In this document: piece by piece, positions 9,001 through 52,722 of the stretch | How the letters are laid out: the number at the start of each line of letters is the position of its first letter | How positions within the stretch are numbered: position 1 is the first letter of the stretch | Assembly: GCA_963924555.1 (NCBI GenBank) | Contig: OZ004596.1 | Span: 1,302,001 to 1,366,000 of the forward strand | Direction: 5' to 3' | From: Crambe crambe | Lineage: Eukaryota; Porifera; Demospongiae; Poecilosclerida; Crambeidae | DNA: 64,000 nt | Notes under the pieces: generated by a model | Told to the model about the DNA's origin: nothing | The model's database searches: none | What the model saw: only the letters and a program-made list of their open reading frames with translations | Position numbers and translations under genes: made by a program

Positions 9001-12000
9001 TCCCTCCAAGGCACTGCCTGCCGGATTCCCAGTGTTTGTTTTGTCCAAGAAGGGCTAGGACACAACTATTAAAATTCCTCGTCCCCTTTGATGTGTGTGC
9101 TTAGTCTATAGTTCTTCGCAGATGTTTATTGGCCAGGGAGATAAATACATTATGCTTCAGGCCATGGCACTTAAGATCTGTAATACTGTTGTTATTGAAT
9201 ATCTTGGCTTCTCTCAGTTGTTCATGTTGTGGTCAGCCCAGAGTGTTATAAATAGCTTTGCAATTCTCTAAGATGACTTGCCCAGGGGAGCTTTTTAGGG
9301 TGTGGTGATATCATGTGATTAGTTACATAATAATGAAGTCCGTGTGTGGCCTCTGGGAGCTTCTAAATAATGCTTTTATTATTATTGTAATATTATTATT
9401 GGTCAGATGTGTGGTATGTGTTGGCTACAGTTATTAAACTCCTTGAAGTGTTATTTTTGATGGAATTACTCCTTTGTGGTGGCCAGGTAATTGAGTTAGG
9501 CTGCAATTTGAGAGGCTCTGAACCTGTCTGGTGGTATCCACCACTCTAGCACTTGGCAGATTCAGGTATAGTAAGCTGCAGGCATAGTTGAATTGGGCAT
9601 GCTTGCCTAAGAGGGTAGCTTCGGGTACTCCTGACGGGACTTGTTTTCCTCTCCATAGCTTATCAAGTTTCAGACATCACTGTGTCACCATTTTTTTATT
9701 TATCATCGAGGGAGAAAGCATTTTCCATGTCCTCTTTTGGCTACATGTCCTCTTTTGGCTACATGTGTCGGTGTTCTTGTTAATTAGAGCCTATTTTGGT
9801 TGAACTTTTGCTTTTATATTTTGGTTTTTAAACTTTCATTCTCTTTCATTTCTCTTGATTATCTCTTTCAACCGTCCTCCCCCTTTGCCTGGCCCTTTCC
9901 TCTTCCTCCTCCCTCCTCTGCTATTCCACTTACCTTCTGATGTGGGTCAGAGAAAATAAACTCTATTAAATTCCTTCATATTCTTCCTGTAGCCTAGTTA
10001 ATAGTGGGTGACAATGATGTTTAAAAGTGTGTGAGCAAAACCGAAAGTTGTGAAAAGTGACCAGAAGACAGGACAGTGAGAGAAGGAATTGAAATTGATG
10101 TATTAATCTTTCCCAAAGTACAGAGATTTTGGCAGTGGTCAGGTAGTGGGTGAATTTTGAGGTCACCTTTCTCTTTATAGAGAGCTAGATAGAAAGATTC
10201 TAACCTTGATTTTACTCTAGTTTGTGTAAACTTCTTCTTTATAACCTGAGCTAGCTGCCAAGTGTTCGTGACCCATTCAAATATGATAGGCGATAATATC
10301 TAGGCAATCACTTTTTTGGAAGTGGCACTGGTTGGCAAACATGAGGCCCTCACTGTATGTACTTACAGTCACCGCTTATAACAAAACAGAGTCTGCATAA
10401 AAGGCTGGTGTTCTAACTAATCTGGAGTTGTGTTATCAGTTTTGCATGGCTGCATTCATTTACTCAGAGAGAGTTGTCTCTTCTGTGAAGTTGATTAATT
10501 GAATTAGAACTATATGGATCACTTTTTTACTAATTACATTGTTGAGATGTTTGGGGTGTGAATTATAGAACACAGCAATAATAAACAGGATGAGTGTTCA
10601 CTCAGTACTTATTGTAAAGTCACATGATAATAGTATTTAGTAGTCATGTGATTACAAATTTATGTGCTCTTATTTCATATCCTTAGAAATTTAAATGCTG
10701 ATGCAGCAGTCATGCCATCACTTGGCAACCAGTACTTTGCATTTGGTGGCAGTCTCCCAGAACTCTCCCTGACCTCCCTCAGTCGTCTCCTTCCAAACTC
10801 CTCAGCCAATGACTCGGGCATGTCATCTTGTCCTGGACTCTTTACCCTCCCTCTCTATGTCTACCCCAGCCAGCAGCACCTTGCCACGCCCTTCATTAAC
10901 ACCCATGGGTCCATCACCTTTGGCAGTTTTCTTTCTAATGGCTCAAGTTTGTGTAGCACCTCACGAGGATCTGCTGGGGGAGGTGGCAGCAGTAACAATA
11001 TGGGTACACCTGGCGAGGGAAACACAGGTGATGCTGATTGTGATGTGACCAATAATGACAACAACACTGAGGAGATATTGGATGGGTGTGGTCAGACAGG
11101 AAGTCCCTCCCCCTTGAGAGTGAATGGGTGTGGTCAAACAGGAAGTTCCTCCTCCTTGCAAGAAAACATTATTAAGCTGCCAATGTATTCTCCTATTTCT
11201 GGAGCTATTTTGGGTGGGGCTGCCCCTGGGGTTATCACCTCGTTGCCTGCCTTCAGCACGCTTGCTCGTGGAATGGAAGCAGACCCCTCCAGCACTAAAA
11301 CAGCTGCAGCAAGCAACACCAACAGTTCCTCTTCACCGTCATCCAATCATCCCAACTCTCTTGGGTCGCACTGCATTGCTACCATCACTGGCAACACCAT
11401 TAGACATCACCCTCAAGGAATCGCCTCGTCAAACGACCACGCACACCATCCTCACCATCTCCCGCTCCATAACCCAGCGCAACCCCATCTCCATGGCACC
11501 ACTCCAGAGGGGGCTAGCGATAAGCACCCACACTTGGCTGCTATGAGTCCAGGACAGCCTGACCTCTACATGGCACAAGAGAACACGATACTCCAAACAG
11601 TGCCCACCATCACAAGTCTGAATAGAATCAAACTGGAGAGTGATATGGAGCCACTTGAGCTGGACCCGACACACAGGGGACTTGCCCTCGTGTCCCCAGA
11701 GGGAGCTCGATTGAACTCTCCCCACGGCCAAATAGACATGGGAAGGGTTATCGGGACAAAGGACATCAAAAAGGAAAAAGATAAGCCATACAAGTGCGAC
11801 CATCCTGGGTGTGGTCGTTCCTTCTCATTTCCTGCTCACCTCCGTTCACACATCCAACAGATCCACATCTCCTACCGACCATGCAAGTGCGAATTTCCAG
11901 GTTGCGGCAAGCGATTCTACACTCCTCAGCACCTTAATGTGCACCGACGGGTCCACACAGGGGAACGTCCCTTTGTCTGTCCGTACACGGAGTGCACAAA

Positions 12001-12358
12001 GGCCTTTACCACGGCTGGGAACTTGAAGAATCACATCAGAACACACACGGGAGAGAGACCGTATGCTTGCAAGTTCGAAGGCTGTGGGAAGAGATTTGCA
12101 GAGATGTCCAGTCTCAAGAAACATGAACTTACCCACACTGGGGAGAAACCTTATAAGTGTAGGGTGTGTGGAAAGGCATTTTCACAGGCAGGAAGCAGGA
12201 ACACACACGAACGTAAGCACAACAGAACAGAAGATGAAGAAGGAGAGGGAGTCAGTATCGGAGTGGGAGGAGTCATGGGTGGAGCTAAGGGATCTAAAAA
12301 ATATAGGATTAAAAGAATATCTGGCAGTGGGACGATAGAAGAAGCAATGGAGCAGTAA
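6022..12358 (+). CDS. C2H2 zinc-finger transcription factor, five fingers
   Basis: Join 6022-7367 and 10687-12358, about 1005 residues. The split codon (ACA GG | A AAT) keeps frame across a 3.3-kb intron (gtgagt...ccttag). The start is the first of two ATGs and has an in-frame TAA 51 bases upstream. The N-terminal two thirds are low-complexity Ser/Thr/Pro-rich, with candidate SUMO sites (RVKHEP near 7065 and RIKLESD near 11628). A repeated GCGQTGS motif lies near 11080-11150. Five tandem C2H2 fingers lie at about 11785-12225. Fingers 1-4 have the C-x4-C spacing (CDHPGC, CEFPGC, CPYTEC, CKFEGC) and finger 5 has C-x2-C, with TGERP/TGEKP linkers. This is the style of the ZNF143/ZNF410/MTF-1 class, but I cannot assign an orthologue. 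Nuclear DNA-binding regulator by inference. The C-terminus is basic after the fingers. Confidence 0.85.
7368..10686 (+). other. Large intron of the zinc-finger gene
   Basis: Bounded by donor gtgagt and acceptor ccttag with matching phase. It is AT-rich, with no supported coding exon on either strand. A 17-base direct duplication (tgtcctcttttggctaca) sits near 9728-9765. Confidence 0.7.
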
Positions 12359-31823: not shown

Positions 31824-33158
31824 ATGGATTCGGGAACCAAGTTACACACAAAGGGCAGATACTTCTGTGGAAGAAACGCGATCGTAGAAGGAGATATATT
31901 CAAATTCAAAGGAGAGGGAGGTAGTGTGGGCGTGGTGAGAATAGTAGAGCCCATCAATCCGATATTGAACTACTTCGAGTACCAGATAGTATCTAGAGGA
32001 GTCAAATGTGCCATAGGACTTGGCTTAGGGGATCAGTCTTATCCCTTAGATCGTATGCCAGGCTGGAACAGGAATGGTATTGGGTACCATGCAGATGATG
32101 GTCGGCTCTTTCACCAAGATGGCTATGGCAAGCAGTTTGGTCCCACTTGCACAGAAGGGGATCGGATGGGTTGTGGGGTTGATTTTGACAGTGATGTTGG
32201 TTATGGGTATTGTGAAGTATTTTTTACCAAGAATGGGGTGGAAATAGGCACACCAGTGAGAATAAAGTGTCCAGTCTACGGACTTTACCCTATCTTTGGC
32301 CTCCACAGTCGCGGGGAAAAGATCCGCTACTTGGGACACTGGAATCGTCAACGACCTGGTCTCCTGGAACCAATGATTCATGACCACTCCCCCTGCAACA
32401 CATGGCTTCGTTCCAATAACATCAAATTCCAAGACGATGGTTTGACCTTGGAGTACTCTGGGGATGGGCTCAACCGACAAGATGTGGGTATTGCACAGGG
32501 GAATTTCTGCCTCGATCAGCAGCATCATTACTTTGAAATGTCACTTCTCTCATCGGGAAAAGAAGGATGGTTTGCAATAGGCCTAGCACGCACCACTTAT
32601 CCACTTCATCGACATCCAGGGTGGAATGCAGGATCAGTTGGATACCATGCAGATAACGGCCACTTATACAAGGAGAGAGGACATGGAGAACCTTTCGGTC
32701 CAACTTGCACTGAGGGAGATGTGATGGGATGTGGCATATCTTTCCCCGTAGACAGTTCTCTGAGTGCCGAGGCAGTGATTGGTGCCACCTCCCCCAGCCC
32801 AGCTCTGGCCCCAGATTCTGATTCGGAGGATGAGAAATTCCTAGTCCAGGCCGATCAGTACAACTATGGGGAATTGTTGGATGATAATTCCAGCTGGGAG
32901 GAGGATTCAGACAATGAGGACATTTACTTGGGCTATGAGCTGGAGTTGGAAGCTAGGAGAAAGGTGTGGCAAGGAAGGAACTTGGCCCCCAAGGTGGAGT
33001 CACAAAGTACAAAGACCTGTTTGGTCTATTTCACAAAGAATGGAGAAAAAGTTGGAGAGACTGAATGTTCACTACCCAAAGGGGGTTTCTACCCTGTTGT
33101 AGCCATGCTGAGTCAGGGTGAACGAATTAGAGTCAATTTTAACCCTCTAACTGGATAG
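31824..33158 (+). CDS. SPRYD3: SPRYD3-like protein with two SPRY domains, intronless
   Basis: 444 residues. Two SPRY/B30.2 repeats (about residues 55-175 and 230-320 plus 395-440) carry the family's paired signatures: YPLDRMPGWNRNGIGYHADDG and YPLHRHPGWNAGSVGYHADNG, each followed by FGPTCTEGD(R/V)MGCG. The second SPRY is interrupted by an acidic Ser/Asp/Glu-rich linker (about residues 325-390), as in vertebrate SPRYD3, before its last strands (CLVYFTKNGEKVG). The end GERIRVNFNPLTG matches the family's C-terminus. A protein-interaction adaptor by domain type; cellular role poorly known. No intron, unlike most genes around it. Confidence 0.9.
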   Translation: MDSGTKLHTKGRYFCGRNAIVEGDIFKFKGEGGSVGVVRIVEPINPILNYFEYQIVSRGVKCAIGLGLGDQSYPLDRMPGWNRNGIGYHADDGRLFHQDGYGKQFGPTCTEGDRMGCGVDFDSDVGYGYCEVFFTKNGVEIGTPVRIKCPVYGLYPIFGLHSRGEKIRYLGHWNRQRPGLLEPMIHDHSPCNTWLRSNNIKFQDDGLTLEYSGDGLNRQDVGIAQGNFCLDQQHHYFEMSLLSSGKEGWFAIGLARTTYPLHRHPGWNAGSVGYHADNGHLYKERGHGEPFGPTCTEGDVMGCGISFPVDSSLSAEAVIGATSPSPALAPDSDSEDEKFLVQADQYNYGELLDDNSSWEEDSDNEDIYLGYELELEARRKVWQGRNLAPKVESQSTKTCLVYFTKNGEKVGETECSLPKGGFYPVVAMLSQGERIRVNFNPLTG

Positions 33159-33348: not shown

Positions 33349-36300
33349 ATGCAAATATCTGCGTTTGTATTTATAGGTTTCGCTCTTTCCTACTCTTCAG
33401 CTGCCGTCGTTACTGTCTCCAAGAACTGCGACAATGGAGGGCCAGAATGTGTTTCCCTGGACAGGGCATTAAGAGACCTAATCTCAGATACCACCATACA
33501 AATGGAGTCTGGAGATTATCAACTGGAAAACTTCACTTTACACAAGAATCTATCCAATATCAGAATTGTGGGAAGTAACACTTCAATCCAGTGCGCAAAT
33601 AGTGTGGGACTTGCTTTCATAAACTCTTCATACATCCTTATATCTGGAGTGGAAATCAATGGCTGTCGATTGAATGGAACAAATTTCAATATGGTTTTGG
33701 AAGAACTGGAGAGGTTTGTCGATCTGTTTTTCTCCATTCCAACTGAGGTCCAGGTGGGTGTGTTCCTAGGCCATTGCAGGAATGTGATGTTGGAGTCTGT
33801 GGTGGTTACCAACACTGCAGGATTCGGACTAGTTGGTGTTAACCTCATTGGTGCTTCCAGCTTCTCAAATGTCACTTTCTCTAATAATATCCAAGTGGGA
33901 TCTTGCACAAATAATAGTATCAGTGCTGCTGTTTTAACACAAAATTTGACTAAAGGGGGTGGAGCAGTCCTGCTCTATCAAGATTTCACTAATGAATACA
34001 AACAAGCTTATACCAACCAAATTTTTAGTCTGGAAATGGAAAATGTTAACTTCTCTTCAAATTCAGAATGCACCTTATCTTATTTTACAGCCCTAGGTGC
34101 AAACTCTCAGTTTTTGAGTGAATTGGGTTTTGGAATAGGTGGTGGAGGAGGACTCAGTCTACATTTGGCCCAGCTTGATTTTAGCATCAATATCACCACA
34201 AGAGAAAGCTTTTTCACCAATAATTCTGCTCTCTTTGGAAGTGCAGCTCAAATCACTCTTTTTAGTGGCGTGAAGAACTCGGTTGTTACATTTGAGGATA
34301 GCACATTCGAGTCTAATGGAGTATTGGAACCCCTTAGTACTGCAACTCTGAGGGTTCTTGGATCTGGTGGAATAGCCATTTTTAATGACATTCAACTGCC
34401 TTATGATATTGTTCCAAACCTTGAGATGAATCGAAACTTTTATGTGAATATCCGAAACTCAATTTTCTCACGAAATAGATCTCCGTTTGGGGCAGGGATG
34501 TTCATTTACTCTACTCACACCTCACCTTTGAGGGATACAACTGATGCAGTTCAGTTTCTCATTGCTAATACCACCTTCATACAAAATGAGGCCAATTCAG
34601 GTTCTGCCATGATAATAACTGAGATTAAATCTTCTGGAATGGCTGATGGCATTCAAGTAACTATTCAAAATTCTTCATTCATAAACAATATAATTGTATC
34701 GGCCAATCCCGACCCCTCCATGGATGCCCTGCTCGTTGGACAGACTGTGGGGACAATTGAGGTAACAAACATCAATATTACCTTCCATGATGAATGTCAC
34801 ATTCAAGGTAATCTGGGGAGTGGACTCAAAGCTGAAAGAAGCCTAATTGGAGTGTTTGGGGATCTGACACTTCGTGAAAATGTGGGGGTTAGTGGAGGAG
34901 CCCTCCATCTTCTCAGCCAATCATTTATCATACTCCTGCCTCACTCTCGTCTTCGTTTATTGAATAATACCGGAGAAGTCTCAGGTGGTGCAATTTATGT
35001 GAATCAGATTAGCTCCACCTCATACAGTGAGGGCTTAATTAGTGACTGCTTCTTGTCCTTTGGATATGATGATTTTGTGATCTGTACAGATTGTTCGGAT
35101 ATTAATGCTACAAATGCTTACGTTGAGTTTAGAGGGAACACTGCTCCAGTTGGCAGTTATATCTATGGGTCTACATTAAGTGGTTGCCCCTGGGCTGACC
35201 ATTTCCAGCTGAATTTCAACACTACAAATACCTTTGCCATCCTCCATGAAAACTTTCCAAATGTATTCAATTTCGAAGAAAATCCACTCAATCCTGGACT
35301 GGTTAGGGGCTTTGCATCCACTCTATCCAATATGACTCAAGTACCATCCACTGTAGCTCCAGGACAAAGGTTCTCAGTAAACTTCACGGCAATGGACAAT
35401 CTTGGGAATTCTATAGCCACAGTCCTCTCTTCATTTGCTTCTTCTCTTATTAATCTGGAAATGGTTGAGAGGACTTCAACAACTGCTTCTCTGAGTACCA
35501 ACAACTTTGCAATTCTATCCCATACAAATTCCACAAGTGTTCCGATAACAATTATTGGTCCTGAAAACAAAAATGTTGATGTCACCATCTATTCCACTGA
35601 TCCTGGTGTTCGTGCGCAGACAGTTTTACAAGTGAAACTTGGAAGTTGTGGACTTGGATTTAACTTGTCTGATAACCGCTGTGAGTGCCGTAACAACTTC
35701 ATAGAAATAGGAGTGACTTGTGATCTTGACAATCACACACTCATTGTCAGTGGTAATCAATGGTTGGGACTGTTGACTGATAATGGAAACCAATCACACA
35801 AAGATGACAGCAATGTTGTCTTTGGAACATGCCTATTTGGGTACTGCCGGCTAGAAACTGCAATTTTAGATGTCACCAATGACAACGTGCCAGACTTTAA
35901 AAGTCAGTGTGACTTTAACAGGGCTGGAGTATTGTGTGGGCGCTGCAGAGAAGACTACAGTGAAGTGATTGGCACTTCCATAGAATGTAGAAAGTGTTCG
36001 AATGTCTACATTCTCTTATTCTTCCTCTTTGCAGCAGCAGGAATCCTCCTCATGTTCCTTATTACATTTCTAGACATCAACATCACAGGAGGTTTCCTCA
36101 ATGGTGTCATCTTTTACTCCAACATCTTCAGCCTTTATGCACCTAATCTCAAAATACCATCACAACATCATTTAGCAGTTGTTTTTTGGCCATCTCTGAA
36201 CTTTGGAATTGACTCTTGTCTCTATGATGGTATGACAGCCTTACATCGCACTATCTGGCAACTTGTTTTCCCAGTTTACCTCTTCATCCTCATGTTTCTA

Positions 36301-37272
36301 ATCACAGGCCTTTTGAACACCAAATGTGTCAAACTGGTAAAGGCTTCCTCGGGACACAGCATCATTCAGGCTTTCTCCACACTCATCATACTCTGCTATG
36401 TCAGCATCTTCCAATCCTGTGCCGAGTTGGTAGGAGCTACAGAGATCACATCACTCACAGGAATGAAGCATGTTCGCTGGATTGTAGACGCATCTGTTCC
36501 ATATTTCGTCAATGGTCATGGGCTCCTCTGTTTCCTGGCTATCTTGCTCTTCTTGTTCTATCTCATCCCTCTTCCTATTTTCCTCCTATTCCCCAACCTC
36601 ATTTATAGGAACAAATACTTGCACAAATTCAAACCCTTTTACGATTCCTTTTGGGAGCCATTCAAGACTAAATATCGATTCTGGCTTGGAATGAAGTTGA
36701 TATTTCGATGGATTCCTTTCATTCTTGTGTTTACAACCTCAGAGTCTATTAGTGTGTTCATTACGTCCCTCATGCTCCTCCTCCTCCTCTTCCTCCAACT
36801 ATTGGTCAACCCTTTCAAGAGTAAGTGGCGAAACTACATGGACAGCTTTTTCCTCCTCAACTTGTGCATGTTGTTTATTGGAGGTCTCTTTGTTCAATTG
36901 GAGGTGGAAAAGACTGGCAAGGTTCATGCTGCTCTCTTGGCCTATAGCACCATTGTGATTTTGTTGGGGTACACAGGATTTGTGATAATTGTGTTTTACC
37001 ATGTCTTTGTCCGTTTTCCAAAACTGCAATCATGCCTGAGGCAGTGTATGCGTCGTACATACTTTGCAAAGTACATGAAGCCTGAAACTGATGAAAATGA
37101 TGCTCAAGTTCCAAAAGTAAGCCCAGCCAAGAAAAATGTAGATGTAGACGGTAAATCCACTGAAACTAAGAACAGCAACCAACTCAATAACTCCTCTACG
37201 AAAAAGCAGCTAGTCACATTTACTGAAATACAGATACAACCAGTACTACGTGAGCCACTGCTGGAGCCTTGA
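33349..37272 (+). CDS. Large surface protein: parallel beta-helix ectodomain plus seven-pass C-terminus
   Basis: Start placed at ATG 33349 (MQISAFVFIGFALSYSSAAV, a good signal peptide); the same frame opens 37 codons earlier without a signal-like start. About 1307 residues, no intron. The ectodomain (to about residue 780) is Asn/Ser-rich with repeated right-handed beta-helix rungs (xxxFxxNxAxxGGAxxx, e.g. NVGVSGGALHLLS and NNTGEVSGGAIYVNQ) and many N-x-S/T sites. A Cys-rich juxtamembrane stretch follows (CRCRNN-type, CLFGYC, CDFNRAGVLCGRCREDY). The membrane region runs from about 36000 to 37020: helices start near 36001, 36250, 36361, 36510, 36706, 36838 and 36929. The C-tail is polar. This pectin-lyase-like/Pmp-like plus multipass layout is seen in sponge and other invertebrate gene families; ligand and function are unknown. 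Surface receptor or adhesion protein by topology. Confidence 0.82.
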   Translation: MQISAFVFIGFALSYSSAAVVTVSKNCDNGGPECVSLDRALRDLISDTTIQMESGDYQLENFTLHKNLSNIRIVGSNTSIQCANSVGLAFINSSYILISGVEINGCRLNGTNFNMVLEELERFVDLFFSIPTEVQVGVFLGHCRNVMLESVVVTNTAGFGLVGVNLIGASSFSNVTFSNNIQVGSCTNNSISAAVLTQNLTKGGGAVLLYQDFTNEYKQAYTNQIFSLEMENVNFSSNSECTLSYFTALGANSQFLSELGFGIGGGGGLSLHLAQLDFSINITTRESFFTNNSALFGSAAQITLFSGVKNSVVTFEDSTFESNGVLEPLSTATLRVLGSGGIAIFNDIQLPYDIVPNLEMNRNFYVNIRNSIFSRNRSPFGAGMFIYSTHTSPLRDTTDAVQFLIANTTFIQNEANSGSAMIITEIKSSGMADGIQVTIQNSSFINNIIVSANPDPSMDALLVGQTVGTIEVTNINITFHDECHIQGNLGSGLKAERSLIGVFGDLTLRENVGVSGGALHLLSQSFIILLPHSRLRLLNNTGEVSGGAIYVNQISSTSYSEGLISDCFLSFGYDDFVICTDCSDINATNAYVEFRGNTAPVGSYIYGSTLSGCPWADHFQLNFNTTNTFAILHENFPNVFNFEENPLNPGLVRGFASTLSNMTQVPSTVAPGQRFSVNFTAMDNLGNSIATVLSSFASSLINLEMVERTSTTASLSTNNFAILSHTNSTSVPITIIGPENKNVDVTIYSTDPGVRAQTVLQVKLGSCGLGFNLSDNRCECRNNFIEIGVTCDLDNHTLIVSGNQWLGLLTDNGNQSHKDDSNVVFGTCLFGYCRLETAILDVTNDNVPDFKSQCDFNRAGVLCGRCREDYSEVIGTSIECRKCSNVYILLFFLFAAAGILLMFLITFLDINITGGFLNGVIFYSNIFSLYAPNLKIPSQHHLAVVFWPSLNFGIDSCLYDGMTALHRTIWQLVFPVYLFILMFLITGLLNTKCVKLVKASSGHSIIQAFSTLIILCYVSIFQSCAELVGATEITSLTGMKHVRWIVDASVPYFVNGHGLLCFLAILLFLFYLIPLPIFLLFPNLIYRNKYLHKFKPFYDSFWEPFKTKYRFWLGMKLIFRWIPFILVFTTSESISVFITSLMLLLLLFLQLLVNPFKSKWRNYMDSFFLLNLCMLFIGGLFVQLEVEKTGKVHAALLAYSTIVILLGYTGFVIIVFYHVFVRFPKLQSCLRQCMRRTYFAKYMKPETDENDAQVPKVSPAKKNVDVDGKSTETKNSNQLNNSSTKKQLVTFTEIQIQPVLREPLLEP

Positions 37273-37532
37273 AACAATTAAGTAGTGAGATATGGATTAC
37301 TGTAATTAGCCCCCCCCCAATAATTTTTTCTCTTGCTGGTAGTTATTATTTGGTGGAACCCTATATTATTATTTAGATGCTACATTGACATTTTCATTAA
37401 CTAGCTAGTTCACATATCAGCGAACTCTAACAACCCAAGTTAAAATCTCTGTGGGTGTACCCTCGAGTGTAAACATAGTATCCCCAAGAGTATTCTAATA
37501 CGCATGCGTAGAAAATATCCTAAGCCACGTGC

Positions 37533-37611
<79 letters not shown>

Positions 37612-37857
37612 GTGCGTGGTGCCGGTAGTCGATGCATGCGTATTAGAATACTATAGACGTGTCAGCCTTTTTTTTTTTTTCTTAGAATCTTTCTTTCTTT
37701 CTTGTTTTGATTTGGTTTGTTGCTGTAGTTTTGTTTTGTTTTTATTTTGTTTTTTTTCATCATCACCTTTATAGCTATTACAAATCTATGATTACTTACT
37801 TGTACTAGAGAGCTAGAGACGACGTCTGCGCGCGGTCGATCCTTTACCAAGTGCCAC
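37273..37857. other. Intergenic DNA before the Lon gene
   Basis: Holds an inverted-repeat element with a 76-base T run (listed separately) and further T-rich sequence at 37668-37760. The Lon promoter should lie in about 37760-37857, which is G+C-richer (gacgacgtctgcgcgcggtc); no specific site can be named. Confidence 0.5.
37489..37652. mobile_element. Inverted-repeat element with a 76-base poly(T) core
   Basis: 19-bp perfect inverted ends (agtattctaatacgcatgc and complement) enclose T at 37534-37609, flanked by another short inverted pair (ccacgtgcg/gcgtgcgtgg). No target duplication is clear. Could be a MITE that received a retroposed poly(A) tail, or a simple repeat expanded in a hairpin loop. 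Confidence 0.6.

Positions 37858-48507: not shown

Positions 48508-52722
<4,215 letters not shown>

Follow-up and report, generated by a model that had tools for sequence, protein, structure and literature searches.

The question raised by this locus is what kind of protein combines rungs of a bacterial-type β-helix with a row of membrane helices in an animal genome, and whether the gene stands alone or belongs to a larger system. It lies in a 64,000-nucleotide stretch of contig OZ004596.1 of the sponge Crambe crambe (assembly GCA_963924555.1, positions 1,302,001 to 1,366,000 of the forward strand), referred to here as the window. The coding frame, which we call P0001, runs free of stop codons from an ATG at 33349 to a TGA ending at 37272 (1307 codons). 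It had been read in the initial annotation as an intronless gene of nearly 4 kb, and this reading stands: P0001 is one uninterrupted frame, and the long frames of its family are likewise single-exon. The observation is borne out and proves more extensive than first noted: P0001 belongs to a large, intron-poor family that has a defined architecture (Table 1).

Wnt matches from a profile search of the same genome come as separate short pieces covering successive parts of the profile, and genes of that kind in this genome therefore have introns. In P0001 the reading frame stays open further upstream of 33349. Its closest kin at the DNA level are L007 (94% identity, ~104 kb away) and L008 (80%, ~99 kb away), both on the opposite strand. 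Homology begins abruptly at 33369 with L008 and at 33377 with L007, and the tract TTTCGCTCTTTCCTACTCTTCAG (33378–33400) at this start resembles a 3′ splice acceptor, so that P0001 may have a 5′ leader intron. The 5′ flanks of P0001 and these two loci are unalignable, in contrast to coding sequences with as much as 94% identity. This points to either a 5′ leader exon or gene conversion that was confined to the coding sequence.

Several other features lie nearby. A two-SPRY gene, called SPRYD3 in the initial annotation and also a single frame, sits immediately upstream on the same strand (31824–33158). Just past the end of the L007 homology, at 37489–37652, 24-base inverted repeats (92% complementary) flank a run of ~70 T; the element resembles a MITE, but we rejected that reading, an 18-base stretch of its arm being found exactly once in the genome. 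Elsewhere in the window, judged by eye, the frame at 10664–12358 is a candidate C2H2 zinc-finger gene (YY1-like) and that at 48508–49743 a candidate RecQ/BLM-like helicase. A tblastn search of the window with 29 family members gave 30 hits, all inside 33349–37272, and thus no further family member there.

The paralogue search and per-genome count that the initial annotation had proposed put the family at no fewer than 188 loci in this 143-Mb genome; 134 of these have a frame of at least 1100 codons without a stop. Five protein searches gave 172 distinct loci on 18 contigs, among which 133 have a stop-free frame of that length, 36 are shorter and 7 contain stops (these sets overlap); a sixth search added 16 loci, mostly fragments, one being long and open. 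Because only the best candidates were scored, these counts are lower bounds. When clusters were defined by inter-locus gaps below 30 kb, 112 of the 172 loci fell into 29 clusters, the largest with 14 and 12 loci. A degenerate pattern built on the CFYDGMD loop matched 51 places in the genome, compared with 1 for the reversed control; five of the loci found with it are outside all lists and were left out of the 188. No relatives were found in viral_contigs and genome_contigs. Similar unnamed proteins probably exist in other sponges and cnidarians. For alignment we used 29 members, leaving aside L001–L005, which are DNA hits that overlap in part with the others, and L033 (an 808-residue frame), and later added 14 (L036–L049), which were picked by hand and are not a random sample (two chosen for length, twelve from other clusters), giving 43 aligned members.

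Table 1 Features of P0001 in window coordinates
Feature	Position	Strand	Basis
Single-exon coding frame of P0001, 1307 aa	33349..37272	+	open-frame list; dN/dS of paralogues
Predicted signal peptide, ~residues 1–19	33349..33405	+	hydrophobic N-terminal segment in 41/43 members
Right-handed β-helix with Pmp-like rungs, ~residues 25–640	33421..35268	+	motif enrichment; family profile matches
Probable Ig-like β-sandwich, ~residues 655–748	35311..35592	+	family profile against PDB, weak match
Cys-rich neck, residues 760–888, 11 invariant Cys and invariant W805	35626..36012	+	43/43
Membrane block, residues 889–1220, probably nine helices	36013..37008	+	hydropathy, charge
C957 in loop 2 (predicted outside)	36217..36219	+	43/43; sole invariant Cys beyond the neck
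Predicted cytoplasmic tail, residues 1221–1307	37009..37269	+	residues 1219–1240, mean K+R 6.0, D+E 1.0 (43 members)
Tail motif REPLL, within LREPLLE	37249..37263	+	motif count in 43 tails

The N-terminal arm carries the signature of a Pmp-like solenoid. Residues 20–640 of P0001 contain 12 FxxN motifs (4.3 expected) and 8 GG(A)-like turns (1.05 expected), and none of 5000 shuffles matched either count. P0001 itself meets no curated profile cut-off (TIGR01376 POMP_repeat, 12.8 bits with a cut-off of 15), and the profile evidence comes from its relatives: with E ≤ 1 as the limit, 20 of the 29 members have a Chlam_PMP match (best 7e-12), as do 9 of the other 14 (best 2.2e-40), and Beta_helix is matched by 5 (best 2.5e-8) and 2 (best 1.5e-37), respectively. 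A cysteine pair near the end of the helix, C567 and C613, is kept in 38 of 43 members at each position. The Pmp-like β-helix ectodomain of the initial annotation is thus upheld by family homology and motifs rather than by a structure, and "Pmp-like" holds for the repeat alone; the abundance of N-glycosylation sites also noted there is evident in 26 sequons, 23 of which precede residue 888. Single-sequence AlphaFold2 models of both halves are unusable (pLDDT 33.0 for the ectodomain, 33406–36018, and 43.2 for the membrane part, 35611–37068). Arm length ranges from ~500 to 1312 residues across members, and two of them, L036 at 2025 aa and L037 at 1801 aa, represent this same protein with a much longer arm. 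At positions 2785–4528 of L037, an 11-copy, in-frame tandem array of a 162-bp unit, with copies 88% alike, encodes β-helix rungs; each unit is 54 residues, or about two rungs, and in this one long member the arm has grown by duplication of two-rung units. Neither L036 nor P0001 has a tandem array in its arm at the DNA level.

Two further elements lie between the arm and the membrane block. Behind the helix there is probably an Ig-like domain, which was absent from the initial annotation: the family profile matched a surface-layer protein best in PDB (E 0.0041), and 4 of the 11 listed chains are surface-layer proteins, the other 7 (E 0.046 or worse) being unrelated and matching other stretches. 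G672 in this region is kept in 42 of 43 members. The neck that follows is Cys-rich as first described, and its eleven cysteines are invariant in all 43 aligned members. Exactly eleven neck cysteines plus one in loop 2 are found in 34 of 43 members, and the total of neck and loop-2 cysteines is even in 40 of 43. The last cysteine cluster of the neck resembles DUF7630 (PF24633), a 45-position model without an assigned function, with E ≤ 10 in 27 of 29 C-terminal halves; P0001 itself scores 13.5 bits, below the cut-off of 27, and the model matched at least 5 places in the genome at E ≤ 0.001 (150 of 325 candidates scored).

The initial annotation had counted seven hydrophobic helices after the neck. 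A hydrophobic row is indeed present, but the number is probably not seven: the family-mean scan gives eight clear segments and one weak one, with centres at ~899, 921 (the weak one), 982, 1014, 1067, 1120, 1143, 1175 and 1208. At a fixed threshold, the 29 members have 7 (2 members), 8 (9), 9 (10), 10 (6) or 11 (2) segments; segment 921 is called in 16 of the 29 and segment 1014 in 28. Averaged over the 43 members, the K+R/D+E counts of loops 1 to 8 are 0.2/0.3, 1.5/3.3, 1.1/0.1, 2.7/3.6, 7.0/1.6, 0.3/0.7, 2.2/0.3 and 0.9/1.0, and sequons occur in the same loops in 5, 4, 0, 13, 0, 5, 1 and 5 of the 43 members, and in the tail in 1. A nine-pass reading places a mean of 16.5 K+R inside and 5.3 outside, and an eight-pass reading inverts the charge rule. 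A seven-pass reading that omits segments 921 and 1014 gives 16.9 inside and 5.0 outside and by charge is equal to nine. Taken together, nine passes probably fit hydropathy and cysteine parity better than seven. We prefer nine because segment 1014 is hydrophobic in nearly all members, because loop 3 has a slight positive charge and no sequons, and because C957 must face outside to pair with the odd neck cysteine. The near-absence of sequons from loops 3, 5 and 7, which nine passes would place inside, compared with their frequency in outer loop 4, also speaks for this reading. The sequons of loop 1, a six-residue loop at the membrane that would be inside under nine passes, weigh slightly against this reading, being found in 5 of 43 members, no fewer than in outer loops 2 (4), 6 (5) and 8 (5).

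These observations bear on the possibility that P0001 is a divergent seven-pass GPCR with a β-helix ectodomain, like the Dictyostelium family 3 receptors GrlP, GrlQ and GrlR. The N-terminal region of those proteins is described, in the available part of the report, as homologous to chlamydial Pmp (PMC1885808), and the seven-pass reading fits the charge rule as well as nine passes do. However, such a receptor would have to skip segment 1014, and it would place the invariant C957 and an acidic loop inside the cell, leaving the invariant neck cysteines odd in number. The absence of a familiar 7TM signature noted at the outset is also supported, in that no 7tm family, 7tm_3 included, came up when Pfam was scanned with 29 C-terminal halves (E ≤ 10), 29 near-full-length members (E ≤ 1) or the 14 additional members (E ≤ 1), although the HMMER filters can miss very distant kin. 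We therefore regard a GPCR identity as unlikely.

It is similarly improbable, in our assessment, that the protein is a channel or mechanosensor whose nine-pass base lets ions through and whose solenoid acts as a tether or filter. The weak second segment, which is possibly re-entrant, has conserved glycine, asparagine and aromatic residues that would be in keeping with such a role, and a bond between the neck and an outer loop would lend itself to force gating. Against this, there was no match to the TRP-like family PF06011 in the sponge's own genome, including the family loci, though 14 control genomes were equally without a match, and the membrane profile (43 rows) matched no PDB chain. The Pfam scans gave the block isolated weak matches in single members (such as LapA_dom in L036, 0.00074, under its cut-off) and no family whose membrane fold is known. 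By sequence, P0001 as a whole matched nothing in PDB, and a profile of neck and membrane block (29 rows) gave one chance hit, EEA1, at E 4.3.

The predicted cytoplasmic tail ends in an LREPLL(E/D)-like motif that the initial annotation had not recorded. The pattern RE[PSAEIT][LIMV][LIFMV] is present in 29 of 43 tails, compared with 0.25 expected from shuffles; of the initial 29 members, in which it was first spotted, 23 have it, as do 6 of the 14 later additions. Median identity is 21% in the arm and 29% in the membrane block, and the tails are otherwise 17% identical. In the neck-and-membrane tree, members with the motif fall on either side of the midpoint split, a distribution that needs 8 changes. 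Five close members without REPLL (L038, L039, L041, L044 and L049) have a common AAxxRE ending. A YxxΦ-like stretch is present in the tails of four of them, L039 being the exception, and in that of the distant L048.

Such a tail could also belong to an endocytic or scavenger receptor for particles, with the motif acting as a dileucine-type sorting signal and one subfamily using a tyrosine motif instead. LREPLL does resemble dileucine signals, and the tails with the YxxΦ-like stretch are ones that lack REPLL. The canonical dileucine signal, [DE]xxxL[LI], has an acidic residue at −4, which is absent from the tail motif, and the YxxΦ stretch is short, was noticed post hoc and is missing from L039 of the same clade. 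We accordingly attach a low probability to this explanation.

P0001 and its relatives are under constraint. Across 11 paralogue pairs, dN/dS is mostly 0.2–0.6 in helix, Ig-like domain, neck, membrane block and tail, in agreement with purifying selection across most regions; the exceptions are the helix of L031/L035 (1.41, with dS 0.05), the neck of L025/L027 (1.20, dS 0.024) and the tail of L031/L035 (0.81). The 11 pairs give no general sign of diversifying selection and no overall excess in the arm of the kind that an arms race might give. That P0001 is a recent retrogene in which two unrelated halves were fused by chance is highly improbable: it has no intron and its homology to the nearest paralogues stops near the coding limits, but the same architecture recurs in 43 aligned members that are clustered and under purifying selection, and there is no poly-A run where the homology ends near 37454, although the run of ~70 T lies ~80 bases further on. 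No intron-bearing relative was seen among the loci with frames of at least 1100 codons. Of the earlier suggestions, retroposition or an intron-poor family, the latter is supported, and retroposition is unneeded because every long frame is single-exon and 112 of the 172 loci lie in clusters.

The explanation that we favour, and to which we give roughly even chances, is that these proteins are lineage-expanded cell-surface recognition receptors with a disulfide-clamped solenoid arm, a nine-pass base and, in most members, a common tail motif. The signal peptide would place the long, glycosylated β-solenoid outside the cell, where it would serve as a variable arm that binds a ligand or surface. 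The Ig-like domain and the eleven-cysteine neck would couple the solenoid to the membrane base, which is predicted to cross the membrane nine times with its N-terminus outside and its C-terminus inside. One of the neck cysteines probably forms a disulfide with C957 of outer loop 2, and through this bond a pull, or a ligand-induced change in the arm, could be passed directly to the helix bundle. In most members the LREPLL(E/D) end of the tail may recruit the same cytoplasmic partner, either a sorting adaptor or a signalling scaffold. More speculatively, the family could represent an undescribed early-animal recognition system of some 130 or more intact receptors, with arms of varied length on a new, disulfide-clamped nine-pass base and mostly one common partner, discriminating food, symbiont, pathogen or self; we consider this possible but on balance doubtful.

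How do these receptor candidates compare with known systems? Autotransporters of the Pmp type carry a C-terminal β-barrel. Among the Pfam matches of the family there was no autotransporter domain, and the C-terminal half consists of successive hydrophobic helices. Chlamydial Pmps (PF02415, TIGR01376), which are described as autotransporters, share their FxxN and GGA(I/L/V) β-helix rungs with the P0001 family (PMC11166332, available part), but in the latter the rungs sit on an α-helical membrane block in an animal genome. The nearest published layout among the matches found is that of GrlP, GrlQ and GrlR, which likewise join a Pmp-like N-terminal region to a multi-pass membrane domain; by the published description, as far as available, their membrane part is a family 3 7TM domain, whereas the sponge proteins have no 7tm match, probably nine passes, twelve invariant cysteines and a tail motif. 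A survey of social amoeba GPCRs has parallel β-helix repeats among its abbreviations (PMC10445921, available part), and the terms beta-helix, pectin lyase and polymorphic do not occur in the available part of another GPCR survey (PMC12716839). Adhesion GPCRs of the sponge Amphimedon similarly set a long ectodomain on a multi-pass base (PMC4302439, available part), but 7tm_2, GPS and GAIN are without a match in the P0001 family members scanned. Among the matches listed in the literature searched, in titles and abstract openings, no animal family of this layout was described. With 188 or more loci in a single animal genome, the family has a membrane domain to which these Pfam and PDB profile searches gave no name. 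Should these proteins be receptors, they would be ready candidates for the means by which this animal tells microbes or self apart, and their invariant cysteine set and tail motif offer direct handles for testing; a repeat familiar chiefly from the surface proteins of chlamydiae is here joined to an animal multi-pass base.
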